Assembly: GCF_024139115.2 (NCBI RefSeq)
Contig: NC_085139.1
Coordinates: forward strand, 9,147,533 to 9,211,532
From: Armigeres subalbatus
Taxonomy: Eukaryota; Arthropoda; Insecta; Diptera; Culicidae
Direction: 5' to 3'
Length of the DNA: 64,000 nt
Shown: in pieces, positions 600 through 54,207 of the stretch
How positions within the stretch are numbered: the first letter of the stretch is position 1
Layout of the letters: each line of letters opens with the position of its first letter
Made by a program: the position numbers and the translations under genes
Notes under the pieces: model-generated
What the model saw: the letters and a program-made list of their open reading frames with translations, nothing else
Database searches by the model: none
What the model was told of the DNA's origin: nothing

Positions 600-610
600 C
601 TAGTACTGCA
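600..610 (+). promoter_or_regulatory. CTAGTACTGCA array motif, forward
   Basis: An 11-of-13 match to the recurring TTCTAGTACTGCA element, lying 134 bp before the acceptor of unit 2 and about 340 bp after the unit 1 stop. Function unknown. Confidence 0.55.
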
Positions 611-744
611 TATGTTCGACTGTATCATAACAAAGACACTAAATATAAAAAAATATACCAAATTAAAAAATATTCACTTTGTATGCTACATAATAAATTT
701 ATGCTGAACAGTTTTTTTAATCAACAACCCTATTTACATTCCAG

Positions 745-1007
745 AAATATATTTCACCAAATCGAGCCGTGGTCGTCCGGCGATCATCATCGATGGTATC
801 AAGTACTTGTTCATGTCGGAGAATCACAAACGGGTGGTTTGGCGGTGCTCATCGATGGCCACCAGCAAACTCAAGTGTCCGGCCCGGATATTGCAGTACA
901 AGAACCCCGAACGGTTTGTCATCCATCGCGAAAAGCACGTCCATGCACCGCTGAAGCGCCACAAGGTGGCGTTCTACGCGCAGGAAATGTTCGAAGTTGT
1001 GGAATGA
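745..1007 (+). CDS. mod(mdg4): mod(mdg4)-type 3' exon, FLYWCH finger (unit 2)
   Basis: The acceptor is TTTACATTCCAG (AG at 743-744). The first two bases complete an upstream codon and the frame runs open to TGA at 1005-1007. The finger reads SSRGRPAIIIDG, then VVWRC (Trp about residue 32), KLKCPAR (Cys about residue 44) and HVH (about 64-66), followed by a 20-residue tail. AATAAA at 1039-1044 lies about 30 bp after the stop, so the unit is a complete terminal exon. It is shorter and more divergent than its neighbours but keeps every presumed zinc ligand. Confidence 0.85.
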
Positions 1008-1143
1008 GATGCATGTGTAAATATCACAACATTTTGATAATAAATTCTTCTATTTTAAAAATATATTTTTGTATTTTTCCAATTCTTTTGTCGAAACTAG
1101 ATAAGCTTTGCACATTTCACTAATAATGTTATTTCTTTCGTAG

Positions 1144-1520
1144 ACTACCAGCAACAACCCACTGTGACTAACATTAACGGACAGGTGCTCACCTACCGGA
1201 GCAGCCAGAAGGGTCGCCTCCAGTTGGCCTGCGATGGGTTCTACTACGTCAAGGAGAAAACTGTGAAACAGAAGGAATACTGGCGCTGCATCTACTACAC
1301 CACCAAGATAAAGTGCCATGGGCGGTTGCACACCTTGAACGGAGAAGTTGACCACAGCACGCCCCATAACCATGCGGCCAAAGTTTTCAAACGATCGGAC
1401 TATGGCCGTCTATCGGAAATTATCATACCGCCGAATACGTCAGCATCATCAACCGCGCAGGAATCGTTTTCTTCAATTCACATAGAAAGTGTAGCAAAAA
1501 TAGAGCCATTTTATAAATAA
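1144..1520 (+). CDS. mod(mdg4): mod(mdg4)-type 3' exon, FLYWCH finger (unit 3)
   Basis: The acceptor TTTCTTTCGTAG (AG 1142-1143) opens the shared phase. About 125 codons follow: a short Gln/Thr leader, the FLYWCH finger (SSQKGRLQLACDG, YWRC, IKCHGR, HNH), then a tail of about 45 residues rich in Ser/Pro/Thr. The TAA stop (1518-1520) sits inside the polyadenylation hexamer AATAAA (1516-1521), leaving essentially no 3' UTR before the signal. This is the last unit before an 11-kb repeat block. Confidence 0.88.
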
Positions 1521-1859
1521 AATTCAGACTATATCTAATCTTTTATGTTACAGAGTATGTCGTCGAAAACTATGAGATCATTCGTTACTAACATTTATTT
1601 TTAAACATATTCTATTTGCATTTGTGTGGCCAGGAGTGGTAATCATCATGCTTTTGTTATTATTATTGAAATCATTGCATCTACCGAAACTATGCTAATC
1701 TGCTCATCCATGTCTGTCTCATGTAGATAGGCAATCAAGCGCACATGGGACATGGGCAGTTGATGATGAAGCATGTATGTAGATGCCTGGCAATATTAAA
1801 TACTCATCCTACTTGGTTGGAATTGTACAAACAATACGTGAGAGAGTCGATTCTAAAAA

Positions 1860-12249: not shown

Positions 12250-12800
12250 AAAAGTGTTCACGCGCCTTCAAGCTAGTTGCAGTAGAGGATTTGTAAGGGA
12301 GAAGCAGCTTATGCGAAATTTCGGCATCAGTCTTAAACACCAATCTTCATCATCCTCTATCATTTCGATTGCTGCTAGTTGATGCACTTCAACTGTTGGG
12401 CGAGAGGGTTGCAAGTTTGGGATCATTCTGAGAAGCCGGTTTTGTTTCACTTGGATGTTTTTCCGATGGGTACGAGAACAGTCATGCCACGCAGGAAATT
12501 CGTAAGTATTCATAGGCCTGAAAAACGATGTTGTACAGCAATATTTTAGCAACTTAACAACTTGCGCTGGTTGGAGTTGGTCCACGACTAGCTTAGCATC
12601 ACGATGGAAAGAAAGAATTCCGGTGTCATCAGCAAAAGAGTAGTACTAGACACCGTTGATTCTGGTGAGATCGGCAGAGAAGATGTTATACAGTGTTGGG
12701 ATCAGTACCGATCCTTGAGGAATCCCGTAGGGAACACCCAAGGGATCAGAGGTGCAACCGTTCGTCCTGACATAAACTCTGTTACTTATTATCTCATTAT
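12250..12800 (-). mobile_element. Jockey-like non-LTR retrotransposon fragment
   Basis: Read on the minus strand: NRVYVRTNGCTSDPLGVPYG, IPQGSVLIPTLYNI, then FADDT, the reverse-transcriptase palm with its catalytic Asp pair, followed by a thumb/C-terminal region (PAWHDCSRTHRKNIQVKQN, RLLRMI). There is a stop just before the FADD block. The fragment ends about 25 bp upstream of the pyrimidine tract of unit 4 and appears to replace the position where its sister unit 6 carries the CTAGTACT motif. Confidence 0.75.
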
Positions 12801-12828: not shown

Positions 12829-13157
12829 GCGACAAATATGGTTTCTCCGATAACCATGGATTCTCTGAGCGAGCCATGTACGATTTCTCGTCCCGGGGAA
12901 CGCAATGTTTAGTGTACGATGGATTCTACTACAGTAAGAATAAAACCAGCGAGGGCGGTATTCGGGTCAACTGGAAATGTCGTTACTACCAGCGATTCAA
13001 GTGCAAAGCCAGAGCTCTCACCAAAACCATCCACGGATGTGACTTTGTGCGGGTGTCCAGTACGGAGCATACGCACTTGCGCGAGATGTTCTGCAAGGAT
13101 TTGCGAAGAAAACGCCGCAAAGTCAATACATTTGATTCTGCAGTTTTTAATTACTAG
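12829..13157 (+). CDS. mod(mdg4): mod(mdg4)-type 3' exon, FLYWCH finger (unit 4)
   Basis: The acceptor TTTTTGTTTTTCAG (AG 12827-12828) gives the shared phase and the stop is TAG 13155-13157. The leader DKYGFSDNHGFSERAMYDF is followed by a canonical finger: SSRGTQCLVYDGFYY, VNWKC, RFKCKAR, HTH. The tail is basic (KDLRRKRRKV). It is a close paralogue of unit 6, including the intron sequence just upstream, and a more distant paralogue of unit 25. Confidence 0.9.
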
Positions 13158-13257
13158 AAGCAAGGAAGACAGAACCACCCGATTGAAGTTACTGAAATTA
13201 CGATGCCATTATTTTTGGAAAATTAAAACAGGTTAAACAAAATGTAGCGTATTATTA

Positions 13258-13270
13258 TTCTAGTACTGCA
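13258..13270 (+). promoter_or_regulatory. TTCTAGTACTGCA array motif, exact, forward
   Basis: Exact 13-mer, 101 bp after the unit 4 stop and 48 bp before the unit 5 acceptor. Confidence 0.6.
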
Positions 13271-13318
13271 CCTAAACTGCAGGTGTTCTTACACACGATT
13301 TCATTGTGTCTTTAACAG

Positions 13319-13578
13319 GTAACGTTATCTACGTGCTATCGAAACGTGGTAGCAAGCATCTATTTCACGATGGAAATACGTATACTCCGAACGAGCGGCC
13401 CTACCCGGGACAACGTTCCAGAACGTGGAAGTGTACATTGTATTATCGACTGAAATGTAAAGCACGCATAGTCACCAGCGAAGGTGGCAGTCTACCCAAG
13501 TTGCGTGTGGTGGTTGCTGAACACACCCACGAGAAACCGTTTCCCCATTTGAGTGCGAAGTTTCGAAGTCTATTCTGA
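13319..13578 (+). CDS. mod(mdg4): mod(mdg4)-type 3' exon, FLYWCH finger (unit 5)
   Basis: The acceptor is ATTGTGTCTTTAACAG (AG 13317-13318) and the stop TGA 13576-13578. The finger starts almost at the splice site: VIYVLSKRGSKHLFHDG, TWKC, RLKCKAR, HTH. A short basic tail ends SAKFRSLF. AATAAA lies at 13637-13642. The leader is minimal, so the finger would sit close to the common part of the protein. Confidence 0.9.
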
Positions 13579-13812
13579 TCCAAAGAACACATCTAGTCAG
13601 TCATTGTCAAATGATATTTATTGAAGTCTTTTGAAAAATAAATGTTCGAGTGATTGAAGGATTTGGTACTGCTATTTCTCCATGAATAAAAAAAAAACAA
13701 ACGCAATATGTTTCCAAATTACTTGCAGGTTAGTACAAGTTAGAATCGTACGATTTTTTCTACAGTAGAAACAAAGAATGACCTATCAGGAATAGTTGTA
13801 TAGCATATAACT

Positions 13813-13822
13813 CTAGTACTTC
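13813..13822 (+). promoter_or_regulatory. CTAGTACTTC array motif, forward
   Basis: The core is intact but the 3' flank is TTC instead of GCA. It is 39 bp before the unit 6 exon, overlapping the zone where the branch point would lie. Confidence 0.5.
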
Positions 13823-13861
13823 ATCATTTGACGCAAGCATTTTTTGTTTTTTTTTCTTCAG

Positions 13862-14157
13862 CTGTCAACTACAGTTTCTCCGATAACTTTGGCTTCTCTG
13901 AGCGAGCGGTTTATGAATTCACGCCCCGGGGAACTCAAAGTCTGGTCTACGATGGATTCTATTTCAGCAAAAATAAAACTAGTGAAGGCGGTATACGGGT
14001 TAACTGGCAATGTCGTCACTATCAGCGATTTAAATGCAAAGCAAGAGCCCTCACTAAAACTATTGATGGGTGTGATTTTGTGAGGGTTTCCAGTACGAAA
14101 CATACGCACTCGCGTGAGATGTTTCTCAAAGATGTGTGGCAAAAACGTCGCAAGTGA
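13862..14157 (+). CDS. mod(mdg4): mod(mdg4)-type 3' exon, FLYWCH finger (unit 6)
   Basis: The acceptor TTTTTTTTTCTTCAG (AG 13860-13861) opens the shared phase; stop TGA 14155-14157; AATAAA 14169-14174, only 12 bp later. Leader NYSFSDNFGFSERAVYEF, finger TPRGTQSLVYDGFYF, VNWQC, RFKCKAR, HTH, tail ending WQKRRK. It differs from unit 4 by scattered substitutions and lacks the Asn/Phe-rich tail, which fits a tandem duplication followed by divergence. Confidence 0.9.
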
Positions 14158-14419
14158 AACATTCCCAAAATAAATACATCCATGCATCAATGAAAGATAG
14201 TAAGATTATGAGTGTAGCAACACTTAAAATGCCATTCAGAGTGATTCTCGCAAGAAGGGGAACCATTAGAATTATCCGGAATGGAAGCAAACGAATCATT
14301 AGCTTTTTGGAAAATAAATATTCTGCGGTCTTAGAGAATTTGGTATTTTTCACAATTATTTTTTCCAATTCATTAACACAAATTGCATATAAGTTCTGAT
14401 ATTTTCGTTTCACTTTCAG

Positions 14420-14676
14420 GTTCGTACGACTGGGGCTCGACGAGTGAGATTCGGTTCGTTCATTATACGGTCAAAAACAAAATGATCACAAAGCTCTACC
14501 ATCGGGGATACACGTATTACCGCAGTAAGCAGGTTAATCAGGCCTCCTATTGGGTGTGCGACAGTACAAAGCGATACAACTGCCGGGCGAAGATCACGAT
14601 CTTCGGCGATAAAAGCTTGTACAAAGTGACAAATTCGTGGCATACGCATGGCCCGATCTTCTCGAGGCATCGGTGA
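14420..14676 (+). CDS. mod(mdg4): mod(mdg4)-type 3' exon, FLYWCH finger (unit 7)
   Basis: The acceptor is TTTCGTTTCACTTTCAG (AG 14418-14419) and the stop TGA 14674-14676. The finger is divergent: FVHYTVKNKMITKLYHRG replaces the usual S-x-RG start, but YWVC, YNCRAK and HTH are kept. Almost no tail follows (GPIFSRHR). Confidence 0.85.
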
Positions 14677-14702
14677 CAATGAATTCGTGTGAAAGCGCAA
14701 AA

Positions 14703-14712
14703 CTAGTACTTC
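14703..14712 (+). promoter_or_regulatory. CTAGTACTTC array motif, forward
   Basis: Lies 27 bp past the unit 7 stop and 461 bp before unit 8; a second copy (14991) is nearer to unit 8. Confidence 0.45.
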
Positions 14713-14990
14713 TTTATTCGAGTATTGACATTCAGATGTTGCCTATGTGATGCCACCTTGTTGTAACGGAACTGGAAAAGAGCATTCACATTTTCACCGA
14801 GGTTGATCATCGAGTCAACCGATCAAGTTGTTAATCGAAGATACATTAACAAAATTAATCAATGCAAACTATTCGTGGATGTGCAAATACTGTGTCATTT
14901 CGTAGTCGTTCTTGTTTAAAATATCTGCTGAGAGACGTTTGAAATGCAAGCAAAAGCAAAATTATGAACATGCATGTTTTTTATTTTTTG

Positions 14991-15003
14991 TGCAGTACTA
15001 GAA
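14991..15003 (-). promoter_or_regulatory. TGCAGTACTAGAA array motif, exact, reverse
   Basis: Exact reverse complement of the 13-mer, 170 bp upstream of the unit 8 acceptor. Confidence 0.6.
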
Positions 15004-15173
15004 TATAAGACATATTTTTGCAATGGAAAAGTTGAACGACGAGTTTTAGATTTTTTTCAACATGTTAAATAAATTTGTTTTTTTTTATGAAAGTCTTTTT
15101 CTCACTACATGCAAATATCGTAAAATAAATACTGCGGTAAACAATTATAATGTAAATATGCGTGTTCCCACAG

Positions 15174-15607
15174 CACCAACTCTCGACGCACAATTCGTTT
15201 TGAGCACTAGAGGATCACTGCAGCTGTGTATCGATGGATACACATTCACTCGACACATTGTGAAGGAGGACACCATCTATTGGCGCTGCACGCAAGCCCG
15301 GGCCTTATGGTATGTGTTTATTGATCCAACCAACCTGAGATTCAATCACACTGAGGCACTTTGTTTCACCTACAGTTGTCAGGCGCGCCACCGTCAGCGA
15401 CGGTCTACCGGAGTGCTGGAAGTGGTTTGGGCACAGCACAACCATGGCATTTTGAAGCGCAGAAAACGAGGCATACTGCGGGATATTCTTCTCAAACGTG
15501 AACAGAGGAATCAGCAGTCAGCGATGATCAATATACCTAAGCTATCGGAAGTAAAATATCCTCCCGTGAACATTCCAGTTCCAGAAGCAATCTTTGGCAT
15601 GGACTAA
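15174..15607 (+). CDS. mod(mdg4): mod(mdg4)-type 3' exons, FLYWCH finger with internal intron (unit 8)
   Basis: The acceptor TGTTCCCACAG (AG 15172-15173) opens the shared phase. The first exon (15174-15309) carries FVLSTRGSLQLCIDGYTF and YWRC. A 66-nt intron (15310-15375; GTATGT...CTACAG) interrupts just before the second zinc Cys, and the second exon (15376-15607) continues CQAR ... HNH and a basic KRRKRG linker with a Pro-rich end. The intron has no in-frame stop and is a multiple of three, so an unspliced transcript stays open. AATAAA 15664-15669. Confidence 0.87.
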
Positions 15608-15702
15608 CTTAATTATTTAATGATTCATCACAATATTAGCTGTCTGATAAAAATCCAATGTCCAATAAAAATCATTCGTGTTGTGTAGCTGTGTTCGATG
15701 TA

Positions 15703-15715
15703 TGCAGTACTAGAA
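15703..15715 (-). promoter_or_regulatory. TGCAGTACTAGAA array motif, exact, reverse
   Basis: Exact 13-mer in reverse, 56 bp before the unit 9 exon and about 35 bp after the unit 8 AATAAA. Confidence 0.6.
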
Positions 15716-15771
15716 TACTATATCAGAGTACACCGGGAGGTGAACTATATTTGATTTCTTATTCTCCACAG

Positions 15772-16180
15772 TTTTGTTCAAATCTGAGGAACCGGAAGTG
15801 CACGCCATACTGAGCAATAAAGGAAACGTTCAGCTGATGATCGATGGGTTTTCGTTCTCCCGCGAAAAGGTTCGACCGAAATCCGTTAGATGGATTTGCA
15901 ACCAAGCATGGGTTATGAGGTAATCAGTCGATGCGATTTCGTTATGTTTCAAAATAATTAATCGTTTCCTCCTTGTAGCTGCAAAGTTCGTGCCACTAGC
16001 GATAAACTAACTGGCAAATTGATATCGGTCCGGGGATCACACAACCATGGCGTGATCAACAACCGACGGAAATGGGGTCAATGTAAATACATCAAACAAC
16101 AATACGAACGGATCTCGAATGTTACGGAGGAGCCTCCAAGGAAAGGAGGCCGACCCAGAAAGCAGTCGCCATTAGAATAA
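15772..16180 (+). CDS. mod(mdg4): mod(mdg4)-type 3' exons, FLYWCH finger plus AT-hook-like tail (unit 9)
   Basis: The acceptor is CTTATTCTCCACAG (AG 15770-15771). Exon a (15772-15919) encodes AILSNKGNVQLMIDGFSF and RWIC; intron 15920-15978 (GTAATC...TTGTAG, 59 nt); exon b (15979-16180) encodes CKVRATSDKLTG, HNHG and a tail ending KGGRPRKQSPLE. The GGRPRK core resembles an AT-hook, which binds the minor groove of AT-rich DNA; this is inference from the short motif. Two exons in different frames, so the unit is visible only after splicing. Confidence 0.85.
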
Positions 16181-16301
16181 CTACAGTTTTTTATCAAGAT
16201 AAATACAACAAAATTTCATGCTCTACTAGTGTTCTATTACTACAATTTTAATTTAGCCTTGATAGATTCGACAAATATTTTCAACTTGCGATCATTTGCA
16301 G

Positions 16302-16671
16302 ATGGCGTTACATATGTGATAAGCAATCGAGGAACAGTGCAGCTGTGCATAAATGGTTACATTTTCACTAAATCACAAGTGCGTGAAAGAATAATTATTT
16401 GGATTTGCAATCAACGGAGAGCTCACGGGTATTTTTTTTATTTCGTGTATTTATCTTCCATCATAAATCTGCTGTGTACACTTTCAGTTGCAAAGCTCGA
16501 GCTACCACTGGTCGGGAGCCAGGAAGTGCGGTTATTTCAATCCGGGAGGACCATTCCCACGACATCATCATCGGGCGTAATCGTAGCCGTAGAAAACCGA
16601 ATCGCCAGACTGATATCATTTGCTCCGCCACCGAATCAGAGCTGGATCATGATGAGTTTGATATCTTGTAG
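16302..16671 (+). CDS. mod(mdg4): mod(mdg4)-type 3' exons, FLYWCH finger with internal intron (unit 10)
   Basis: The acceptor is CGATCATTTGCAG (AG 16300-16301). Exon a 16302-16428 (YVISNRGTVQLCINGYIF, IWIC); intron 16429-16487 (GTATTT...TTTCAG); exon b 16488-16671 (CKARATTGREPGS, HSH, then a tail with RNRSRRKPNR and an acidic end). A degenerate motif (CTACTAGTGTTC) lies at about 16223-16234. Stop TAG 16669-16671. Confidence 0.85.
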
Positions 16672-16881
16672 TAAACGATGAACTGTAAATGATTTTTTTA
16701 TGCCAACTAATGCAAGAGTTATATATGGTTGAACACAATTGTCTTTCACATAAGTGAAAATGCTCCTATGTCTTCCTGAGCAAGAAAGGTAAAAAATAAC
16801 GGGTGGCAACAACCATAAGTAACACGAGCTAAGTTAATAGAGATACCAAAATATATCTTCATGTTGATGGTGCCCTGCACT

Positions 16882-16891
16882 CTAGTACTTC
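16882..16891 (+). promoter_or_regulatory. CTAGTACTTC array motif, forward
   Basis: Intact core with the TTC-type flank, 136 bp before the unit 11 exon. Confidence 0.5.
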
Positions 16892-17027
16892 AATGAATTG
16901 CATAATAAACTAAATACTGTGTGTTTTTTTCTAGAACAAAAAACATATAAGAGATTACATTTTCAATTATTATTCATTATTATTCATTCTAATTCAATAA
17001 ATCTAAAATATTTGAAATTTTTCCCAG

Positions 17028-17469
17028 ATATTTCATTTGTAATAAGCAAACGCGGAAAAACCCAACTGTGTGTGGATGGATTCCTCTACATGCGTGTGAA
17101 AGCAACAGAAGAGGTGCAATATTGGTCGTGCAATCAGTTCAGAGTATTGGGGTTAGTAAATGCATTTTATTTTCAATTAAATAGTAAGCTGATTTTAATA
17201 TTTCCCATCTTTACAGTTGTACGGCTCGTGCTACTACTGGGCGAGCAAAGAAAAATGAACAGCCGACCATCAAACTGCGTGGTTTTCACAATCATAGAAT
17301 TATTCTGAAACGCCGCAAGCCCGGAGAGTGCACGAAATTGAAAGAATTGTACGCTCGTCGACGGCTATCGCAAGCTGATTTGAAACCTGCTGTACCAGAA
17401 CAACAGTGGCCCACATATCCATCAAAACCACCCCTAATGGAACCATGTTTTATGAAGACAGAAAAATAA
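17028..17469 (+). CDS. mod(mdg4): mod(mdg4)-type 3' exons, FLYWCH finger with long tail (unit 11)
   Basis: The acceptor is AATTTTTCCCAG (AG 17026-17027). Exon a 17028-17151 (FVISKRGKTQLCVDGFLY, YWSC); intron 17152-17216 (GTTAGT...TTACAG); exon b 17217-17469 (CTARATTGR, HNH, then about 50 residues: a charged KLKELYARRRL helix-like stretch and a Pro-rich end). AATAAA 17533-17538. The similarity to units 9 and 10, including the ARATTG after the second Cys, suggests local duplication. Confidence 0.86.
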
Positions 17470-17703
17470 TGATTCGTGCTTCAAAAAAATACTTCACATA
17501 GACAAATCGAGTCCTAAAACGTACGTGCGTACAATAAAAAATGACAAATTTAGAATATGCTTCGTTTGGGTGAATAGATATCAATGTTTTACTCGCATTT
17601 GGGCCGATTTTTCATATTCTTACACAAACTTATCACAATCGTTTTATTGGAAAACATTATTGAGTTGAATATTACCATCTGAACTCCATTCTGCTTATTT
17701 CAG

Positions 17704-18017
17704 CTGCCGGTATGATGCTTCCGCATCAAGACTTTCACTACGTGGAAACCAATAAGTCACTGAAACTAATGATACACGGTTACAGCTTCACCCGGAAGCA
17801 GATACGCGAACGGTACACGATCTGGGAGTGTTGCCAGTCGAGGCCACTTGGCTGCAAAGCGGCCGCCACCAGCTATTTTGAGGATAACCGTGTGAGCTTT
17901 CGCGGAGCGCACAACCACGCGATCGTGACGGAGCGGCGGAAACTCGGTCAACGGAAGCGCCTGATGGAGAAACGTCAACTGGAGCGAATAGGGCGGAAAA
18001 TCAAACGTGACAATTGA
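17704..18017 (+). CDS. mod(mdg4): mod(mdg4)-type 3' exon, FLYWCH finger, intronless (unit 12)
   Basis: The acceptor TTCTGCTTATTTCAG (AG 17702-17703) opens the shared phase; stop TGA 18015-18017. Finger: YVETNKSLKLMIHGYSF, IWEC, LGCKAAA, HNH, followed by a strongly basic tail of about 30 residues (RRKLGQRKRLMEKRQ). It belongs to the unit 8-15 subgroup by sequence but has no intron before the second Cys, so the intron was lost here or gained in the others. No canonical AATAAA is evident. Confidence 0.88.
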
Positions 18018-18303
18018 TTTAATATAGATAAAAAATATATAAATTTCTAGCATTTGTTCAAAGTTCAGCATTATATGCACAGCTCAATGCACACTAATTT
18101 TTTAGATGACTTATAAAGACACAGCTTGTGCAAAGTACAAGTTGGAAGTATTTGAATAGTATCAGTTAGAGAGATGATAAAAATGAAACAAAATATCTAT
18201 TACATGTTATTTTCCTACAAATTTAATTAAATTTTCAAAAATATTACAAATGTTTATAACTTGGTAGTTGTAAGTATTTCATTGGGCGTTGGTTCAATTT
18301 CAG

Positions 18304-18688
18304 ATCTGCCGAAATCGTTTTTTGTTCTAAGTGGCCAAGGAGCTCTGCACCTATCGATCGACGGATTTGTTTTCGCGCAACAGGTGACAAAACACGACTC
18401 CATAGATTGGGCTTGCTCTCAGTCGCAAACATTACAGTGAGTAACCATCTTCCAGGTGATAGTTGAAATATTGATTTAATTCCAGATTCCACTTCCAGAT
18501 GCAACGCTCAGGCAACAACAGCGCGGGGAAAAGATCGCAAGGTGCTTTCGATTAGAGGCGAACACAACCACGGCGTAATCACCGAACGTCGCAGAAATGA
18601 TTCCCTGAAGGATCTTGTTAAACAACGGAAGAAAGAGCGTGATGTGAGGCGAATGAGGCTGGCTGGATCTCGCCAGCAATCGAATTAG
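18304..18688 (+). CDS. mod(mdg4): mod(mdg4)-type 3' exons, FLYWCH finger with internal intron (unit 13)
   Basis: The acceptor is TTGGTTCAATTTCAG (AG 18302-18303). Exon a 18304-18436 (FVLSGQGALHLSIDGFVF, DWAC); intron 18437-18498 (GTGAGT...TTCCAG); exon b 18499-18688 (CNAQATTARGKDR, HNH, basic tail KQRKKERDVRRMR). Stop TAG 18686-18688, AATAAA 18706-18711. The usual Lys/Arg after the second Cys is Asn-Ala-Gln here. Confidence 0.85.
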
Positions 18689-18820
18689 ATGTTGCAAGAG
18701 ACTTGAATAAATCGAATTTCATATTACAAATGTTGCGATCGTTCCAGAAAATCAGTCCCATACTTGGAAAAAATCGGCACTGATTTGCTGTTTCGTGTTA
18801 GATGTACATAATCTTATTGT

Positions 18821-18829
18821 AGTACTAGA
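18821..18829 (-). promoter_or_regulatory. AGTACTAGA array motif, reverse
   Basis: Core intact, with TGT rather than TGC upstream; 116 bp before unit 14. Confidence 0.5.
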
Positions 18830-18945
18830 TTGAATATCCGTTAATTTAAATGGTCCATTTCTTTCAGTACATGTTACTGTGAACTAATGTTTGACATACA
18901 ATTTGTTTCGTTTATCATTACTTGCTGCTCTTATTACGGTTGTAG

Positions 18946-19270: not shown

Positions 19271-19282
19271 ACATATGCGCTT

Positions 19283-19774: not shown

Positions 19775-19793
19775 ATATTAATTTGACTTGACT

Positions 19794-37108: not shown

Positions 37109-37537
37109 ACCCTTTGAAATCGAACAGAAGAAAGTTCAAGCCCACTGCTAAGCAAGATGAATGTGAGGCAACTGATGACGAAAATCAACGGTACATGTTT
37201 ATCGTGAGCCGCAAGGGAGGCATTCTTCTGGTGCACGACAATCACATCTATCGGTCCAATATGCGCCGCCAGGGACCGCAGAAGAATATACTCTACTGGG
37301 AATGCGTCCGCAATCGTACGGAGAAATGCCGCGGCAGACTCAAAAGCGAAGCAAACAGTTTGTATGTTTCGAATACACATGGTATGAATGATGTGTAATG
37401 AATTGCTGGTAATAGATCAATTGAACTATCGTTTACTTGCAGTGTCTCATAATCATCGTTCAGAAGTGGATCGCATCTCTCGTGCCAAAGATGAAGGGTC
37501 GATTACATACCGCACGTTTTACTCGATTTTCAAATAA
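37109..37537 (+). CDS. mod(mdg4): mod(mdg4)-type 3' exons, FLYWCH finger split before HNH (unit 21)
   Basis: The acceptor AAATGCGTTTTTCAG (AG 37107-37108), shared phase, lies 98 bp after the unit 20 stop. Exon a 37109-37381: a charged leader of about 30 residues ([20 protein letters not shown]), then [27 protein letters not shown]. Intron 37382-37442 (GTATGA...TTGCAG). Exon b 37443-37537: [13 protein letters not shown], stop TAA. The intron here separates the two Cys from the two His, a different position from units 8-15. Confidence 0.86.
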
Positions 37538-37575
37538 CTCATTCCAGATGTTATTTCTCATTTTTTCAATTTAAT

Positions 37576-37583
37576 CTAGTACT
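37576..37583 (+). promoter_or_regulatory. CTAGTACT array motif core, forward
   Basis: Followed by a T9 run instead of GCA; 39 bp past the unit 21 stop and 174 bp before unit 22. Confidence 0.4.
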
Positions 37584-37757
37584 TTTTTTTTGTTTTGTTA
37601 TTGAACGAATAAATTCAATAATAACAAATTGATATAAAATGTTTTTATTAGTAAGTTTCGTTCTAAATTAACATTAGATGATGATGTCTACTGACAGTTT
37701 GAATAGACATGTGCTGCATTAGTTGCATTTTCTAACACATTTTAACCTGATTTTTAG

Positions 37758-37978
37758 ATTTCTACGTGCGGTACGTGTCCGGATTCAGGGGTAGCCGAAA
37801 GCTGAAAGTGGGTCAGTTTAGTTTCACCAAAAACAAGGAAAGCGTGAACAAAACGTACTGGTCCTGTGCGAGAGCGGGCATGAACAAATGCAAGGCACGG
37901 GTGTTAACATACACTTTGCAGAATGGGGAAGAGAATCTGGTTGTACGGTATCCGACCCACAATCATGAACCGTTCTAG
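37758..37978 (+). CDS. mod(mdg4): mod(mdg4)-type 3' exon, FLYWCH finger, shortest unit (unit 22)
   Basis: The acceptor is AACCTGATTTTTAG (AG 37756-37757), shared phase. About 73 codons that are almost only the finger: YVSGFRGSRKLKVGQFSF, YWSC, NKCKAR, HNHEPF, stop. The stop codon TAG (37976-37978) is itself part of a TTCTAGTACTGCA motif copy. AATAAA 38004-38009. Confidence 0.9.
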
Positions 37979-37985
37979 TACTGCA
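37973..37985 (+). promoter_or_regulatory. TTCTAGTACTGCA array motif, exact, overlapping a stop codon
   Basis: Exact 13-mer whose first six bases are the last Phe codon and stop of unit 22; 116 bp before unit 23. Confidence 0.6.
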
Positions 37986-38101
37986 AGCTAATATGGTGTT
38001 AGAAATAAATGTATTCGAGTGAAATAAATTGTATTCAATTCTTTTCAACGATTGATGGAAACTATTCTAGACTGTAATCATTGTATTCAACTTCATTCTA
38101 G

Positions 38102-38509
38102 AACATGATATGCTAGAGGATGGATCTTCCAAGGACGTATTTTTTACGGTCGGGCAACGAGGCTGTGTACTTTTGCACGTGGATGGCTACAAGTTTGTGA
38201 AAAATCGTAAAGGACCTTACAAAACTTATTGGATTTGCGCTAAAAAGGTAACGAAAAATCGTAGAGCTACTTACGTTGGAATTCAAAACGTTCCGAATGC
38301 ATCGAATTGATCGTTAATTTCAGGGCAGCACGTCATGTCGAGCTAGAGTTATTACTCCGGCAAATAGCGAAGAGAAAAAAGTGGCCAAACTGATATCCTC
38401 TAGCGGTGCACACAACCATCCTGTAAACGTTGAACGAAAACCCCGGAATTGTATGATGCCGAAACTCGAATTGCCCGAAGACATACCGACATACGACATA
38501 CTGGATTGA
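38102..38509 (+). CDS. mod(mdg4): mod(mdg4)-type 3' exons, FLYWCH finger with phase-0 intron (unit 23)
   Basis: The acceptor is TTCAACTTCATTCTAG (AG 38100-38101), shared phase. Exon a 38102-38247 (FFTVGQRGCVLLHVDGYKF, YWICAKK); intron 38248-38323 (GTAACG...TTTCAG); exon b 38324-38509 (GSTSCRARVITP, HNH, a Pro/acidic end PEDIPTYDILD). The internal intron falls between the first and second Cys as in units 8-15 but in phase 0 and six codons earlier, so it looks like an independent gain. Confidence 0.86.
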
Positions 38510-39293
38510 ATGAATATTTTCCAACTGGACCGTTGTTTGTGATATAAATTTAATTTCGCAGGTGTCTAAAGTTTTTCTATTGTGTTGATATTCTCATATT
38601 CGAAATTATTACGCATACACAATTTCCTTTTCCTCACATCAAATGAAAATATCTACTTCTTAGATAAAATAAATTTTGTTAGAATTTCGGAAATATTGAT
38701 TTTACAATTAGGTTATTTTTTCGTGTATTGAACAGTAAATGCAATAAATTATGCATAACGCAGCTACAAACAAGACATAGTGTGATTAAATTATTACGTT
38801 GTAACATTTGCGCTTATTTATAACGATTATATCAAATACAATTCACGCACCACGCCTAGATTAAACTTTTTCGCTTTTTATTTAAAAAAAAAATGGAAAT
38901 GAGTATTATAGATCAAATCTAATCTATTTTAATTAACATTTGAATTTTATTTGTTTTAGTGCCTTTGATTACTACATTTTCCCGTCAGTTGCGATTCAAC
39001 CATTCTGCTCATCGCCGATGTTTATTTTCCAAAACATTCCAACTGTTGGACGATCGGGCGACGTAGTAATAGAGTCAGATTGTTTGCTGGTTATTAACTT
39101 TTGGAGTACTAAATCATAAACGATGCACTGTTCGGTCTTGGTGTTGCAGCTTCTTCCGCCCAATATTTGCAAATAATAAATGATCTTTGAATAAACAACG
39201 AGAATAGAATTGATTTTGGCCCCAAATATGTATCATTCTACTACTTCACTGTTATTCATTTTCTAGATTATTAACAATATAAATTCTCCACAG
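38510..39293. other. Gap in the array, two weak exon candidates
   Basis: AG at 38959-38960 and AG at 39148-39149 would open the shared phase for about 35 and 14 codons respectively, the latter followed by AATAAA at 39190-39195. Neither shows a known domain. A motif-like TTGGAGTACTAAA lies at 39111-39123. Confidence 0.25.
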
Positions 39294-39613
39294 ACTCATA
39301 CGAGAAACCAGCAATAATTCTGACGAAATTTTTGAGACCCACATCGGAGATGGAGTTGGCCCATTTCGGACTAAGCCAACGGGGAGCCAAGAAGTTGATC
39401 TGCCGTGGCTACGAGTACGTCAAGGATCGGGACTTTCCCGACTCAACGAATTGGCGCTGTGCATTGTTCCGTCGCCAGAAGTGCCGAGCCCGCGCCATAA
39501 CCAAAGTGATCGAGGGCTTCACCTACGTGAGATTGACGAACGATGCCCACAACCATGACGGCCGAATGTATCGAAGGAATCCAGTTTTAATTACGGAAGT
39601 GGAGCAGATGTAG
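39294..39613 (+). CDS. mod(mdg4): mod(mdg4)-type 3' exon, FLYWCH finger (unit 24)
   Basis: The acceptor is TAAATTCTCCACAG (AG 39292-39293), shared phase; stop TAG 39611-39613. Leader of about 25 residues, finger [31 protein letters not shown], tail ending ITEVEQM. The RAITKV ... YVRL segment between second Cys and His resembles units 4, 6 and 25. Confidence 0.9.
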
Positions 39614-39741
39614 CTTGTCCTAGAGATGGAGAAGTATTTCCATTGTTGATTCATTACTTTATAAAGTATCAAATACAAACGAGTTTCAACTGATGTGAAG
39701 ATCTTAGAACATTTTTTGTATTCTTCAAAAATGTGGAGATC

Positions 39742-39750
39742 GTACTAGAA
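39742..39750 (-). promoter_or_regulatory. GTACTAGAA array motif, partial, reverse
   Basis: Lacks the leading A of the core; 129 bp past the unit 24 stop. Confidence 0.35.
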
Positions 39751-39914
39751 TACCATTGAACTTATATCACATTGTTTTTAGTTATTATTTAACAAGCTTA
39801 ATTATGTACTGTTTGTCGTGAACTCAATTATTTTTGAAGTTGATATATTCAAAACAACGCAGTAGAAATAATCGGATTAGCTACATTTTTTAAATCGTTA
39901 TAAAATATTTGGGA

Positions 39915-39924
39915 AGTACTAGAA
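39915..39924 (-). promoter_or_regulatory. AGTACTAGAA array motif, reverse
   Basis: 10 of 13 bases; 205 bp before unit 25. With the partial copy at 39742 the gap between units 24 and 25 holds two. Confidence 0.5.
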
Positions 39925-40129
39925 TATAATAGGACAGTACAATGCTAAAGCAGTAACAGATTTAGATACAGTAAAACAGAGCTTGTGAAAACGTTTATTT
40001 TTTCGATAGTTGAATATAGATTTGTCTATTATTATTTACTGGTAGATCATCGTTGAACTACTGCACGGTTGAATAATTCTTCACTTAGAAAGTTCATCAC
40101 CCTAATATTGAATTGTCTCTTTCTTTCAG

Positions 40130-40419
40130 ACGACAAATTGGATTTCACAGAGCGCGCCCTGTACGAGTACACCTCCCGAGGAACGCAGCGCTTGTTGTAC
40201 GGCGGTTACTACTTCAGTAAAAACAAAACCAACGAATCCAGCGGACGGGTGAACTGGAAGTGTCAATTCTACCAACGACTGCGCTGCAAAGCAAGAGCCA
40301 TTACCAAAAACATCAATGGGTATGACTACGTGCGTATCACCCACGATGAGCACACCCATGGCAGTGATCTTACGGAGGCTGAATTTCGTCGTCCGAGGCG
40401 TAGGAAAGATGCGTCGTGA
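40130..40419 (+). CDS. mod(mdg4): mod(mdg4)-type 3' exon, FLYWCH finger (unit 25)
   Basis: The acceptor ATTGTCTCTTTCTTTCAG (AG 40128-40129) has the best pyrimidine tract of the set; shared phase; stop TGA 40417-40419. Leader DKLDFTERALYEY, finger TSRGTQRLLYGGYYFSKN, VNWKC, RLRCKAR, HTH, basic tail RRPRRRKDAS. It is the third member of the FSERA/FTERA family with units 4 and 6, now 26 kb away from them. Confidence 0.9.
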
Positions 40420-40939
40420 AGCTCTGTGAAACACTCTTGAGTGGGAGTAAAATGCCCGCGCTAGAGTATTTTTACTGATTGTGTAACATGTTGCGGTAAA
40501 ACATTTCGCGGTTGTTCAACATTGTTTCTCTTTTTCTTCGTTTAATTGCATTGCATCCTTAAACATTGACTAAGCCAACATGCTGTTTATTAGGTACTTC
40601 CACAGTTATTAGCTAAGAGTTTGAAAACCAAGTACACCATTCATGGTTCGAATATTACACAAATCACACAAATCAGCTTATAAGAGATTGGATCGAAAAC
40701 TAATTCTAAGCAGCCGTATGTATTAAATATATTATTTGCCCATTCCGCGTACATTTGAAAGTAGGCGAACACACTGTTTTACTGTTAGTATGCCGGTGTT
40801 AAAAAATATAAAATAATAGGGAACGGGGGTCTTCAGTTAGCCTTGCAAGCAAAGGCATAGGATTGTCAATCGAGAAATGGAGAGTTCGATTCTCGGTCCG
40901 GTCTAGGGGTGGACATAATTGTGACATAGACCAAAATAC

Positions 40940-49259: not shown

Positions 49260-50007
49260 TATCTACCACGATAAGGTAATAACCGCAAAATGTTTTACCG
49301 CAAAACGGCTGACCATGGAATAGTTTTGTACTTATGCACATTTATTTTATTTTTTGATGGTTACCTAATACAGAAATTATACGTTTTTTCTTATGACGTT
49401 TCAATTGTAGGCATTTGTACAAGATATATTGAAAAACGTGACCATGTAATTCATTATCAATTAGTTTTCTTCGGTTTTGTGACACACATTGAAATACAAT
49501 TAGCTTTTCCAGCTTTTTGAGATATAAATGTAACAACAACTCTAGTTATAAGCGAAAAAAAAGTAAACAGAGAAAAACACTAGCTAGCGTTTATTTTATT
49601 TTATTTTATAGGTAGGAAGAAGCTCCGGAATTTATTGTTGAATCCATTTGGATCCATTTCAATGGATTTTCTTGGTGATATGTGATTAGTATCAGCCGAT
49701 TTTGAAATTTAATAAAGGATGCTGCCCAAGTAGATTTTCTTCCGGCATTTTCTTTTTCTTTCGGACCATTGGAAGGATGATTCAAATAATATTGTTCTAA
49801 TATGAAATTGTCATAGATGATATCTTAATTGATAACAGTTGTTATTGGAATAATGAATGATACAATAAAATGACTAATACAGGAGAAGCAGAAAGTGTAT
49901 CGAAGCTGTTTCGATAATTGATGATCATGTTGTGTTTTAATTTCATTCTATCAATTTTAGCTCATTCAACTCTAACGTATTTCCTTTCATTGAATTTTCA
50001 TTCACAG
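49260..50007. other. Spacer before unit 26, no gene recognised
   Basis: AT-rich; contains the upstream intron of unit 26. No CTAGTACT core is present. Confidence 0.35.
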
Positions 50008-50312
50008 TGAAGCTGGAAATCATCCAAGTCGGGGAGTCGAACAGTAAGTACCTCGACACCGATGATGACGATGAAGGCGATGATGCCCGAACGCAGTTTC
50101 CGTTGGATCTGAAGATGGTACAGGGCCGCAAAGGACGTCCCATGCTGCTGATGGGTGGGTACGCCTTCTTCCGCAACAACACGCACAAAAGCAAAACGTA
50201 CTGGCTGTGCGCCAAGAGTCGTTCGCTAAAGTGTCGTGCCCGGGTCATCACGCTGGACGGCAGTGCGGGGTTGATTCTCAAGAACCAGATTCATAATCAC
50301 CCGCCGCATTAG
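50008..50312 (+). CDS. mod(mdg4): mod(mdg4)-type 3' exon, FLYWCH finger with acidic leader (unit 26)
   Basis: The acceptor is GAATTTTCATTCACAG (AG 50006-50007), shared phase; stop TAG 50310-50312; AATAAA about 50383. An acidic leader (LDTDDDDEGDDA) precedes the finger VQGRKGRPMLLMGGYAFF, YWLC, LKCRAR, HNHPPH, which ends the protein. The R-K-G-R-P start resembles unit 2. Confidence 0.9.
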
Positions 50313-50611
50313 ACATGCTCCGCATGTCAATATGTGGTTAAAATTCTTTTTTTCTTAGTGTGCTCAATTGTGCGAATTCGAGAATAAAATTGTAACTTAA
50401 ATAATATTCAGATTTGATTATTATTTTAATTAACCAAATTTAATCATCTAATCATCAGTACGACATTAATAAAATGTGAGGTAGGTTTAAATGTAATTTT
50501 CCTTGTGAAGTTTCATATTTTTGATCAGGTGTTTTGATTTCGAAAATATAATATTTTTTGATTTAGTTTAATATAAATAACACTAATTCTAATGTGTATT
50601 TTATTTTTCAG

Positions 50612-51018
50612 CTGATCATTATGTCATAACAGATGCATCGATGACAATCAAGGCCACAAATAGAGTAAAAATTCAGCCACTATCAAAGCCTAATAATGCA
50701 CGATCCTCGAAAAACATGCTGATGCGTAACGCGGTACAGATTGAGAGCGGAACTTCGGGGACCCCGGTAGTGTACCAGAACACACGTTTCGGAGCGGCCC
50801 AGGTTTTGCTTGATGGCGTGACGTACTCATTTTTCTGCACGAAGGATCGAATGAGTCATTATCGATGTAGCCAGTTCAAAGGCCAAAAGTGCCCGGCCCA
50901 GGTGTTCGTCAGCAAAGGACTTGTGTACTATCTCTGTAAGAAGCACAACCACGACGTGACCACCGGTTCGCAGTTGGAAGGCGTTTGTCAGACGTATGAA
51001 CGCAGAAAGACGAAGTGA
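50612..51018 (+). CDS. mod(mdg4): mod(mdg4)-type 3' exon, atypical FLYWCH finger (unit 27)
   Basis: The acceptor GTATTTTATTTTTCAG (AG 50610-50611) opens the shared phase; stop TGA 51016-51018. A long basic leader (about 50 residues; NRVKIQPLSKPNNARSSKN) precedes the finger: TRFGAAQVLLDGVTYSFF, SHYRC, QKCPAQ, HNH. The usual Trp before the first Cys is Tyr, and G-A replaces the R-G turn, so the fold is probably kept but modified. The basic end is TYERRKTK. Confidence 0.82.
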
Positions 51019-52071
51019 ATTGCTGAAAAGATATTCAGTGATTTTTAAAAAAAGATTTTTAGTATTCATTGTTCCGTTTAGAATATGGTTAGTCTGTAAA
51101 ATGCTATTGAGCCTATGTTAAACGATGGATATTCCTTCCATTAGTACATAAGTTCCAAGTGCCTTAAAATTCATAGCATGCAATCGTGATCGTGAGTGAG
51201 ACAATATTTTTTATAATATTAGTTTTTACTTTGATACAAAATACTTTTTAAATTTTTTAAAGATACAGTGAAATCTGCTGAGGAAATCAATAACGGTAAC
51301 AAAAACGCAGTGAGCATCGGATCACGGAGAATATTCCTTTCAATTTGGAAGATTTGGCAGCGGATATACACAGCAAACGTTTTTAATTTAATAAATTGAT
51401 AATGATATTACATTTGCGAAAAAACCACGGATAATGGTAGAACTCAAAACTAATGCTTCCCGTTCTCTAGATAGACGTTATAGTTTCTCGAAGGATTTGT
51501 TAAGTTTTGGAAACAGTAGGTTCTGGACCTAAGGTCCACTAGAATAGAGCTGCCATCTTAGATATTACTTCCGTGGAGTAACATTTCGTATTCAGCCGCT
51601 GGATGCCAGGACAAACGGAGTGGTGAACAGACGCTCGATCAGTCTGGTCAGATTTGTTTAGTGTTTCACCCCACATCAGAACTGCGCTTTGTAAGGGCCT
51701 GTTTGCGGATACATGCAGCTTTTTATAGAAGTTTAACAGAATTCACTGTCAATCCTCACTCGCGCTGTTGTATTTTGTACAACGCCAACGAAAATACATC
51801 GCATGCGGTACACAGCACGAGTGAACCTGCATGAGGACCGTGGGCGTCTCGAACGGTTAAGTCTCACGTGTATTCATTTTCGCAAATGCAATATCCATTT
51901 GTCATTTGTAGTTCATAGGATTATAGTTTTTATTTTTATTTCTCGAATTATTTGTATTTCAAACGCCTCAATAAATCGTTTATTCGATAAACGATGTGCA
52001 TTGTTTTATTATTGTTGCTCATTGATTGCCGTCAACATTGTAACTATAGTAATAAATATTCTATCTTCCAG
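51019..52071. other. Spacer with a possible dead exon and an RTE scrap
   Basis: TTTTTTAAAG followed by a phase-compatible frame of about 47 codons (51264-51405) contains AVSIGSRR, faintly like the start of a FLYWCH finger, but no W-x-C or H-x-H. At 51700-51765, TTGCGGATACATGCAGCTTT matches the 5' region of the RTE element at 28768-28787. Confidence 0.35.
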
Positions 52072-52431
52072 ATGACCGCGAAATCAGTTTCATCGTTGGC
52101 CGACTTGGCAATATGCAATTGATAATCGATGGTCACCTGTACACTCGTTCCCAGATACGGGAGCGCATCATAATTTGGCATTGTTCGCGTCAACGATCTG
52201 GGTATGTATTTGCTTTTCATATGCGGAGCCGTGAATTAAACTATCGAACTAATCTGGATTATTATTTTTTTTGGCAGATGCAAAAGTCGCATCAGTACTC
52301 TTCGCGGGGAACCGGGATATGCGTACTCGTTCCGCGAGGACCACAACCACGATAGCAAATTCAACTTCAAGAATAGTGATATTAAAATTCTGAAGGTGGC
52401 CAAACTGAAAGTTGTTGGCAAAAATCGTTGA
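52072..52431 (+). CDS. mod(mdg4): mod(mdg4)-type 3' exons, FLYWCH finger with internal intron (unit 28)
   Basis: The acceptor is TATTCTATCTTCCAG (AG 52070-52071), shared phase. Exon a 52072-52201 (FIVGRLGNMQLIIDGHLY, IWHC); intron 52202-52277 (GTATGT...TGGCAG); exon b 52278-52431 (CKSRISTLRGEPG, HNH, Lys-rich end KVAKLKVVGKNR). The intron position and the RSQIRERIIIW stretch place it with units 10 and 12, about 34 kb away. Confidence 0.86.
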
Positions 52432-52585
52432 ACTTTAACAATTATTCAAGTGTGTTAAGAAATAGAAAACAAATGTGTGACGTATATGTACTTGAATACA
52501 TTCGAAAAATAAGAGAACGGCAAAAATCAGCCTTGTTTCCCATGAATCGTCTTTGTACTGCTCATAACACCAACTAATTCGGTAC

Positions 52586-53545
52586 ATTCAAAGTTAATTG
52601 CCTATATGCCGGGTATTAAGCCACCCGGAGTGGAAATTAATTACTATGTCTGAAACTTGATTATGCATATGTACAACATGTGATAGATTTAGTTCGGAAA
52701 AGATATTGGAGGGTAACCGCCCCTTCGGTGGGGTTTGTTCCAAGACCCCAGTTCGCATGACAGGTGCTTTCCCTACTAAGCTACGAAGGACCTCCGTCGT
52801 CCACCGCAGCTTAGCGGGTACTGATGAAACCAAATTCCCAGCACCAGGTACCAGCCGATCTCTCGCAATACATTTTCAGAACTAACTCTCTCAAATGTAT
52901 TTTTGTACACTATGTCAACCAAGTAGGATGAGTATTTAATATTGTCCGGCTCCTACACACCCTACCCTACACTCCTACCCTCCAATACCTTTTCCGAACT
53001 AAATCTATCACATGTTGTACATATGCATAATCAAGTTTCAGACATAGTAATTAGTTTCCACTCCGGGTGGCTTAATACCCGGCATATAGGCAATTAACTT
53101 TGAATGTACTGATCTCGAGTGGCGATCTCTCTTCGCTTGTGTGGTCGTGTTGGGATCTGAAGACCAAACTGGCACAACCTCACACAACCCTACTTCATTG
53201 AGCGCCGTTGCTGATGAAGCAAGTGTGTAGGAGCCGGACAATATTAAATACTCATCCTACTTGGTTGACATTGTGTACAAAAATACATTTGAGAGAGTTA
53301 GTTCTGAAAATGTATTGCGAGAGATCGGCTGGTACCTGGTGCTGGGAATTTGGTTTCATCAGTACCCGCTAAGCTGCGGTGGACGACGGAGGTCCTTCGT
53401 AGCTTAGTAGGGAAAGCACCTGTCATGCGAACTGGGGTCGTGGGATCAAACCCCACCGAAGGGGCGGTTACCCTCCAATACCTTTTCCGAACTAAATCTA
53501 TCACATGTTGTACATATGCTTAATCAAGTTTCAGACATAGTAACC
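52586..53545. repeat. tRNA-like repeats in inverted arrangement
   Basis: The left arm (52586-52995, minus orientation) and right arm (53225-53545, plus) share GTACCTGGTGCTGGGAATTT, the tRNA-like core with GTAGCTTAGTAGGGAAAGCA and GGGATCAAACCCC, and CTATCACATGTTGTACATAT. They lie in the gap between units 28 and 29 and end about 30 bp before the unit 29 exon, so they reach into its upstream intron. Confidence 0.65.
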
Positions 53546-53575
53546 AACTAATTGTTCCATTCTACGCAATTGCAG

Positions 53576-54207
53576 ATAACGACTCGGAACAAATATCGGC
53601 CGACGATGACTACTATGTTGTTTGTACCGAAGAGGGGAGCTACAAGATTCAGGAGAAGCCAACGGTTGCTCAGCCGAGAACGCCCAAACCACGGAACACG
53701 GCACCGTCACCGGTTCGAGTGAGTCGCATACGAGGCGGATTCGTATTCCCGATCACCAGTGGAAGTGATTTGGAGCGCTTGGAACAAGCTGTAACGAATA
53801 GAAAAGACATTCGCCAGGAATATGTATGTCTAGCGGAAGGATGCAGTACTAGAAGAGTAACATTATACTTATACTTTGCAGGTTGCGCTTTTGAGTCGCA
53901 AACCGAAAAATTATCACATTGCCAATTACATGCAGTGTATTTTTTCCGACGAAGCTCTTGACGATTACAACTACCATGGAGTGCATGTGCTTGGAAGGTG
54001 CAAAATTGCTATGAAGGGTTATGACATATTCAGCAATTGTTTCTTGGGTGAGTATTTTTTTTGTTCATTCCCTATCTTGAATTGTTTTACAATTGTTATT
54101 TTTTTCGTTCATTTTTTATTGTTCATGAAGGCTTGAGCACAAAACATACACAAGAACTGCAATCAAAAGCTTTCATGTTGCTCTGTTGTTTGCGCTATTC
54201 AAATTAA
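53576..54207 (+). CDS. mod(mdg4): DUF4806-type 3' terminal unit (unit 29)
   Basis: The acceptor TTCTACGCAATTGCAG (AG 53574-53575) opens the shared phase. Exon a 53576-53823: leader with DDDYYVVCTEEGSYKIQEK and a Pro/Arg linker, then GGFVFPITSGSDLERLEQAV ... RQEY. Intron 53824-53881 (58 nt). Exon b 53882-54047: VALLSRKPKNYHIANYMQCI, FSDEALDDYNYHGV, KGYDIFSNCFL. Intron 54048-54130. Exon c 54131-54207: GLSTKHTQELQSKAFMLLCC and stop. The layout and both intron positions match unit 20; exon c is shorter and the least certain part. Confidence 0.72.
53842..53855 (-). promoter_or_regulatory. TGCAGTACTAGAAG array motif, exact, reverse
   Basis: Exact 13-mer located inside the 58-nt first intron of unit 29, 26 bp before exon b. 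As in unit 19, the DUF4806-type unit carries the motif in an internal intron. Confidence 0.55.

Follow-up and report, generated by a model that had tools for sequence, protein, structure and literature searches.

A short, strict motif clustered at acceptor units of the mod(mdg4) trans-splicing locus in the mosquito Armigeres subalbatus

The subject of this report is a stretch of 64,000 nucleotides of the Armigeres subalbatus genome (here called the window; C1:9147533-9211532 of a 1.34-Gb assembly of 1,335,692,571 bp) and a short motif, with the 8-bp core CTAGTACT (reverse complement AGTACTAG), that recurs among its exons. The window contains FLYWCH exons, DUF4806 exons and one weak B-box-like exon; one FLYWCH exon, used as a query for homologues, found 6 relatives, among them Anopheles arabiensis. 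The BTB sequence of fly Mod(mdg4), used as a search query, gave its best match (of 38) at C1:8942792-8943004 (89% identity) and a second at C1:8945873-8946019 (88% identity), both on the plus strand, i.e., the BTB donor exons lie on the same strand as the window and about 200 kb upstream of it. The last common (donor) exon ends 1 nt into a codon and is followed by GTAGGT (locus L077, position 1174), and 2 nt precede the first full codon in 76 of 80 predicted FLYWCH acceptor exons, which matches the phase of the donor. Thus, the upstream BTB donor, the matching phases of donor and acceptors, and the FLYWCH exons identify the array, on sequence grounds, as the mod(mdg4) trans-splicing locus.

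An earlier note on this DNA had listed 15 copies of the core in the array, one more within a Jockey fragment (12642), and five occurrences of an exact 13-mer containing the core. The core has 16 matches in the window, at coordinates identical to those listed, and the 13-mer occurs at each of the five positions and in the orientations claimed (Table 1). The same note had put the chance expectation at about two cores per 64 kb, which was too high: 100 dinucleotide shuffles of the window contained 0.72 on average and 3 at most, none reaching 16; a second-order Markov model of the window predicts 0.99; and the 17,137 matches in 1,335,692,571 bp correspond to 0.82 per 64 kb. The genome-wide count which the note had proposed therefore gives an approximately 20-fold enrichment of the core in the window (Poisson p ~1e-15). 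The large repeat blocks contain no core other than the Jockey copy, as the note had said. No 8-mer is more over-represented than the core in a set of five exon-dense blocks picked by hand (19.7 kb in total; 15 observed, 0.36 expected), and the remaining 42.5 kb of the window hold 1 core for 0.64 expected, a satellite block being excluded from both sets; in a ranking of the whole window, satellite words stand above the core. As a separate observation, the core is under-represented in the genome as a whole, with 17,137 matches compared with 31,626 for its reversal.

The cluster extends well beyond the window. The window together with 200 kb of neighbouring DNA (264 kb) holds 53 cores, where the genomic rate predicts 3.4. 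A profile built only from 14 window copies (12642 and 23923 having been dropped) found, in the held-out 200 kb, 32 sites at a score of at least 16 (duplicates are counted in, and as many as four may be coding copies), compared with 1 site for the mirrored profile and 0-4 for eight column-shuffled profiles. The extended motif, searched as WTCTAGTACTNC, has 1,119 matches in the genome (the reversed control word has 680), of which 81 are in C1:8816671-9427667, a region of 0.61 Mb or about 0.05% of the genome (77 without the four coding copies). This amounts to 132.6 per Mb in the 0.61 Mb around mod(mdg4) versus 0.78 per Mb elsewhere, a difference of approximately 170-fold. Among the matches listed, which are the first 100 of the 1,119 and reach to 26.3 Mb on C1, only 3 are situated before 8.816 Mb and 16 between the cluster and 26.3 Mb. 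Outside the locus there are 1,038 matches, compared with 680 for the reversed word genome-wide; this excess is partly due to a repeat family that carries the motif (see below), and no function is claimed for the motif there. Core matches in coding sequence were rejected as members of the motif and removed before the profile and position tests, namely the Jockey copy at 12642, the copy in a DUF4806 frame at 23923, and four paralogous coding copies (9067725, 9068719, 9079940, 9144633).

Removal of these six and of three near-duplicates from the 62 cores of the array loci left 53 copies, which define an extended motif of about 14 bp, A-W-T-CTAGTACT-D-C-A (consensus AWTCTAGTACTDCA). On the 5′ side, 38 of the 53 have A at −3, 50 have W at −2 and 51 have T at −1; on the 3′ side, 52 have D, 49 have C at +9 and 31 have the final A; beyond these columns there is little or no conservation. 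By strand, 35 copies are plus and 18 are minus, and the asymmetric flanks are kept in both: T at −1 in 34/35 plus and 17/18 minus copies, C at +9 in 32/35 and 17/18, respectively. That both orientations keep the same asymmetric flanks suggests that the motif is recognised as double-stranded DNA. The site is also unusually strict, because in 52 kb near the units TCTAGTACTNC (34 copies) outnumbers all of its one-mismatch variants together (15), while the reversed word has no exact copy there and 1 among its one-mismatch variants; the 188 kb farther from the units contain 11 copies of TCTAGTACTNC. In the acceptor spacers, the highest-ranking words of 6, 7 and 8 nt are all pieces of the motif. Four pairs of duplicates were compared: two were too recent or were cut by the edge of the duplication, and in one the core was retained and an indel had altered the 3′ flank, giving 8 differences across the columns of the motif.

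With respect to position, the earlier note had placed most copies 25-210 bp upstream of an acceptor. This is mostly correct: 12 of the 16 window cores lie in a spacer and have a predicted acceptor within the next 700 nt, at a distance of 42-215 nt in eleven cases and of 471 nt in the twelfth; the other four are placed differently. Of the 47 cores kept in the 264 kb, 29 are in such a spacer upstream of one of 82 predicted acceptors, and 14 of these 29 are found 39-73 nt before the acceptor, a range picked after the distances had been seen; uniform placement expects 4.16, and none of 20,000 simulations reached 14. No core is closer to an acceptor than 39 nt (3.4 expected), the copies in the peak comprise 11 plus and 3 minus, and 13 of the 47 are within 100 nt upstream of an acceptor, compared with a random share of 2.7%. 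Downstream of the donor, the list of WTCTAGTACTNC matches without the coding copies has 39 plus and 29 minus (p 0.27). Branch-point words near the motif yielded no convincing companion; the looser initiator-like word TCAKTY occurs at 3.23 per kb downstream of the motif and 1.53 per kb upstream (8 and 5 matches).

The WTCTAGTACTNC cluster flanks the donor on both sides, and its largest gap is a stretch of 116 kb (8863250-8979741) that contains the donor exons and no WTCTAGTACTNC. The profile score nowhere exceeds 6.2 in the three loci, 10 kb in all, that surround the donor exons, and one of the donor loci (L073) was found to hold no exact core. The earlier note had considered an internal promoter element, a site of pausing or termination, and a site for recruiting the 3′ units to the donor transcript. 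A shared element on the acceptor side is strongly supported by the density, the approximately 14 conserved bp, the peak before acceptors and the presence of copies on both sides of the donor; a tether for which donor and acceptors would use one and the same site has become less likely, as no copies were found at the donor.

Not all copies precede FLYWCH exons. Profiles for the three DUF4806 exons (a, b and c) detected no fewer than 12 units, complete or partial, some of them on the minus strand upstream of the donor, and six motif copies reside in short DUF4806 introns for which both flanking exons were found: two in L001 and two in L002 between exons b and c, and one each at window position 53845 and at C1:9213232 between exons a and b. 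Three more are beside a single found DUF4806 exon (9276636, 9248826 and 9259876, the last two being duplicates). Both sense and antisense copies, relative to the unit, occur in these introns. The phase of exon c is that of a trans acceptor, so that a trans-acceptor role of exon c is possible; the phase of exon b does not fit the donor, and such a role would not account for the copies between a and b. The claim that the motif marks the gaps between alternative 3′ exons is therefore right for some acceptors and too strong as a rule, since an exact core precedes 28 of the 82 predicted acceptors (in the spacer, up to 700 nt away) and the motif is also in DUF4806 introns.

What could such a site be for? 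From its sequence and placement, the motif probably serves as the binding site for a protein that regulates the acceptor units, and we consider the chances about even that it is, more specifically, a protein-binding, promoter-proximal element of the mod(mdg4) acceptor units. Acceptor pre-mRNAs do not contain the donor sequence and therefore must be transcribed on their own; in Drosophila, according to PMC12692577, mod(mdg4) acceptor pre-mRNAs arise from distinct promoters. The promoter-proximal role is preferred because of these distinct promoters and because no copy turned up at the donor; the donor has a promoter of its own, and the motif is expected to be missing there if it serves acceptor transcription. 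In the proposed mechanism, one sequence-specific protein would bind A-W-T-CTAGTACT-D-C-A on double-stranded DNA and would serve the transcription units of the mod(mdg4) acceptors (3′ alternative exons). Its site would often be as near to the acceptor as is possible without intruding on the branch region and polypyrimidine tract (39-73 nt, for about half of the spacer copies), and would most likely start or license the acceptor pre-mRNAs; units without a copy might depend on another element or on transcription that reads through from a neighbouring unit. A bolder version, which we regard as possible yet doubtful, is that a dedicated DNA-binding protein, on recognising a 14-bp tag concentrated at the trans-splicing acceptor units, would initiate the acceptor pre-mRNA and at the same time label it for joining to the donor transcript; if true, this would constitute a licence for trans-splicing at the level of DNA, and a locus-private cis code in mod(mdg4).

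Several results weigh against a promoter-proximal role. The motif is not universal, as 54 of the 82 predicted acceptors have no exact core in the spacer, 37 of 84 units have a profile match of at least 10 (a few acceptors being mispredicted), and six units at C1:9323851-9327341 have neither an exact core nor a profile match. Conversely, 18 of the 47 kept cores are outside any spacer of up to 700 nt before a predicted acceptor, and the copies in the cis introns of DUF4806 units, two of them before exon b, are not in obvious promoter positions. A copy 39 nt from an acceptor permits only a very short outron, and the range of the peak was, as stated, chosen post hoc. Neither TATAWA (1.21 per kb downstream of the motif versus 1.84 upstream) nor the strict initiator TCAGTY (0 downstream, 1 upstream) is enriched beside the motif. 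Finally, the cluster has other gaps, of 91 and 43 kb, so that the absence of the motif at the donor is suggestive and is not proof.

The copies might instead be passengers, spread by tandem duplication of units or derived from a mobile element, and the genome does provide material for such a view: some copies are in recent segmental duplicates, the four coding copies are paralogous, and one repeat family bears the exact 13-mer. The 13-mer has 191 matches in the genome (21 for its reversal), 14 in the mod(mdg4) locus and 177 elsewhere; among 40 of these 177 that were sampled, every one of them from the 43 listed on C1, 26 belong to one repeat family (24 by a strict rule and two, L035 and L036, by eye), four to two further repeat pairs, and 10 look unique. 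The family has the flanks gggaccac...tttggtccctcggtaccc, and none of these flanks is found at the locus copies, for which a repeat origin was therefore rejected. A 13-mer that is common in the genome or part of a transposon would, in the terms of the earlier note, speak against its idea; this is half borne out, by the 26 sampled family members and not by the array copies, which are without the flanks. Furthermore, the 53 deduplicated copies have almost no flank information, and neutral copies would not hold 14 bp in either orientation while their flanks decay. The passenger explanation is thus already largely refuted, and we give it hardly any credence. As an observation on the family itself, its 13-mer sits about 45 bp inside the apparent edge, within an inverted repeat GGGACCA...TGGTCCC.

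Other explanations accept a function and place it elsewhere. The motif could be an architectural site, at which a zinc-finger-like insulator protein gathers the acceptor array into a hub or keeps neighbouring units apart, making each of them available for choice, with the promoters lying elsewhere; in favour of it are the length and strictness of the site, its occurrence in both orientations, the spread of copies across 0.6 Mb on either side of the donor, some of them not beside a FLYWCH acceptor, and the precedent of the CTCF-bound element of the protocadherins (PMC7811963). The simplest anchor for a loop to the donor promoter would be at the donor, however, where no copies were found; a peak directly before splice acceptors is not predicted; and the orientation is mixed, unlike that of the oriented protocadherin alpha sites described in PMC7811963. 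On balance, we consider an architectural role unlikely. The peak at 39-73 nt, with nothing closer than 39, fits an RNA element, in which the transcribed motif just upstream of the branch region recruits a factor favouring trans-splicing; the cis-intron copies likewise precede an acceptor, and plus copies are commoner (11 versus 3 in the peak, 35 versus 18 among the 53). Yet selection on RNA would not preserve the full asymmetric motif in reverse complement, as the minus copies do, and there is no clear strand bias downstream of the donor, both sense and antisense copies are in the DUF4806 introns, and by inspection the motif does not contain a canonical branch sequence, so that we hold this explanation to be quite improbable. 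A bound protein might also act as a roadblock that stops or pauses the polymerase between units, preventing read-through and cis-splicing. Many copies are indeed between the stop of one unit and the next acceptor, several are 22-35 nt before AATAAA or ATTAAA (noticed post hoc), and PMC11727487 reports that the last common intron of mod(mdg4) in Drosophila contains a non-canonical terminator; but a terminator in a DUF4806 intron would truncate its own unit, and the peak appears when distances are taken to the acceptor that follows, which makes a roadblock, in our judgement, very improbable.

Several further features of the locus and of the motif were observed. The region C1:9067533-9331532 contains DUF4806 units and, as judged with a local profile, about 84 FLYWCH units, those reported being without exception on the plus strand; its candidate acceptors far exceed the 34 combinations into which, according to PMC4667647, mod(mdg4) of Aedes aegypti is trans-spliced as chimeric mRNAs. 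One DUF4806 unit is seemingly split by about 12 kb, with exon a at 24447 and exons b and c at 36655-37001. Minus-strand DUF4806 units occur upstream of the plus-strand donor in L001 (C1:8861158-8862576, by profile) and L072 (C1:8823597, by eye), an opposite-strand arrangement that the accessible portion of PMC4667647 does not report for mosquitoes. Between two acceptor units, at 20338-21900, there are long satellite-like tracts of GCTCAGCC-type and AGCTAAGC-type words. AATAAA or ATTAAA was noticed, post hoc, 22-35 nt after the start of the core for the plus copies at C1:9143311, 9164414, 9185108, 9185507, 9214365 and 9295105. A second word, TAAATGCG, is 16-114 nt before seven acceptors, mostly of related units. 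Away from the locus, L042 (C1:111658562-111659362) has two motif copies 42 bp apart in surroundings that look like a promoter and 5′ untranslated region; the 6 kb downstream of it contain no identifiable gene, just retroelement-like and short frames. L068, like L042, holds two cores.

Table 1. Motif copies, gene units and related features (plain numbers are window positions; acceptor distances are measured from the core)
Feature	Position	Strand	Remarks
Three FLYWCH acceptor units	1..1520	+	stops at about 262, 1007 and 1520; first unit starts outside the window
Motif copy	598..610 (core 600-607)	+	145 nt before FLYWCH acceptor at 745
Core match	12642..12649	-	in Jockey-like reverse-transcriptase frame; taken as chance, excluded from profile
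Block of twelve FLYWCH acceptor units	12829..19775	+	several with a short cis intron
Exact 13-mer	13258..13270	+	59 nt before acceptor at 13319
Motif copy	13811..13823	+	49 nt before acceptor
Core copy	14703..14710	+	27 nt past stop of FLYWCH unit; 471 nt before next acceptor
Exact 13-mer	14991..15003	-	180 nt before acceptor at about 15174
Exact 13-mer	15703..15715	-	66 nt before acceptor
Motif copy	16880..16892	+	146 nt before acceptor at 17028, or 53 nt with the AG before about 16935 as acceptor
Motif copy	18818..18830	-	125 nt before acceptor
Motif copy	19792..19804	+	20 nt past stop of FLYWCH unit; next FLYWCH acceptor/domain about 2.2 kb on, beyond repeats
Two FLYWCH acceptor units	21970..22796	+	
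Motif copy	22936..22948	+	42 nt before acceptor of B-box-like exon
Acceptor unit without FLYWCH	22980..23395	+	weak B-box-like match, below Pfam cut-off
Core match	23920..23932	-	in DUF4806-like reading frame (Ser-Thr-Arg); excluded from profile
DUF4806 unit, first exon (a)	24275..24632	+	exons b and c about 12 kb downstream (36655-36825, 36885-37001)
Five FLYWCH acceptor units	37109..40420	+	
Core copy	37576..37583	+	182 nt before acceptor; 32 nt before AATAAA/ATTAAA match
Exact 13-mer	37973..37985	+	includes TAG stop of FLYWCH exon; 127 nt before next acceptor
Motif copy	39912..39924	-	215 nt before acceptor at about 40130
Three FLYWCH acceptor units	49961..52432	+	
DUF4806 unit, exons a and b	53577..54048	+	candidate exon c beyond the window at C1:9212397
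Exact 13-mer	53842..53854	-	inside 58-nt cis intron 53824-53881 of DUF4806 unit
Acceptors preceded by TAAATGCG	C1:9067714, 9068708, 9069150, 9079929, 9080369, 9144622, 9184641		
Repeat-family loci	L029, L030, L035-L041, L043, L048-L060, L064, L066, L067		

For the question of how the acceptor exons of mod(mdg4) are transcribed, separated and delivered to the donor, a strict and countable element on the acceptor side could be used as bait for its protein, and offers a small target at which the promoter, hub, splicing and termination models can be tested. It also appears that one gene region may keep a nearly private regulatory word, with 81 of 1,119 copies in about 0.05% of the genome. One likeness is to the Ur element of Caenorhabditis elegans, a short intercistronic element with a poly(A) signal on one side and a trans-splice acceptor on the other; that element works at the RNA level and in one orientation, whereas the mosquito motif is kept in both. 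Among the matches listed in literature searches on the core as text, on mod(mdg4) trans-splicing and on mosquito core promoters, no description of the motif was found. The acceptor set of mod(mdg4) in Ae. aegypti (PMC4667647) represents the same type of gene, with FLYWCH acceptor exons; the part of that paper available describes no shared element, and its main text uses the word “promoter” 0 times. For the same trans-spliced gene in Drosophila, cis elements are likewise known, namely the trans-splicing sequences of intron 4 and a non-canonical terminator (PMC12692577, PMC11727487). Both, in these two papers, belong to the donor side and lie within the last common intron; the mosquito motif accompanies the acceptors, and no copy of it was found at the donor. 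The CSE of the protocadherin genes, with its CTCF-bound CGCT box, resembles the motif in being a short shared element beside many alternative exons that are joined to common exons (PMC7811963). An element of the CSE type would be expected upstream of nearly every variable exon, whereas the mosquito motif is at a minority (28/82 acceptors, 37/84 units); the motif does not have a CGCT box and occurs in both orientations (35 plus, 18 minus), and it belongs to a locus of trans-splicing, where it is found on both sides of the donor and also in cis introns.

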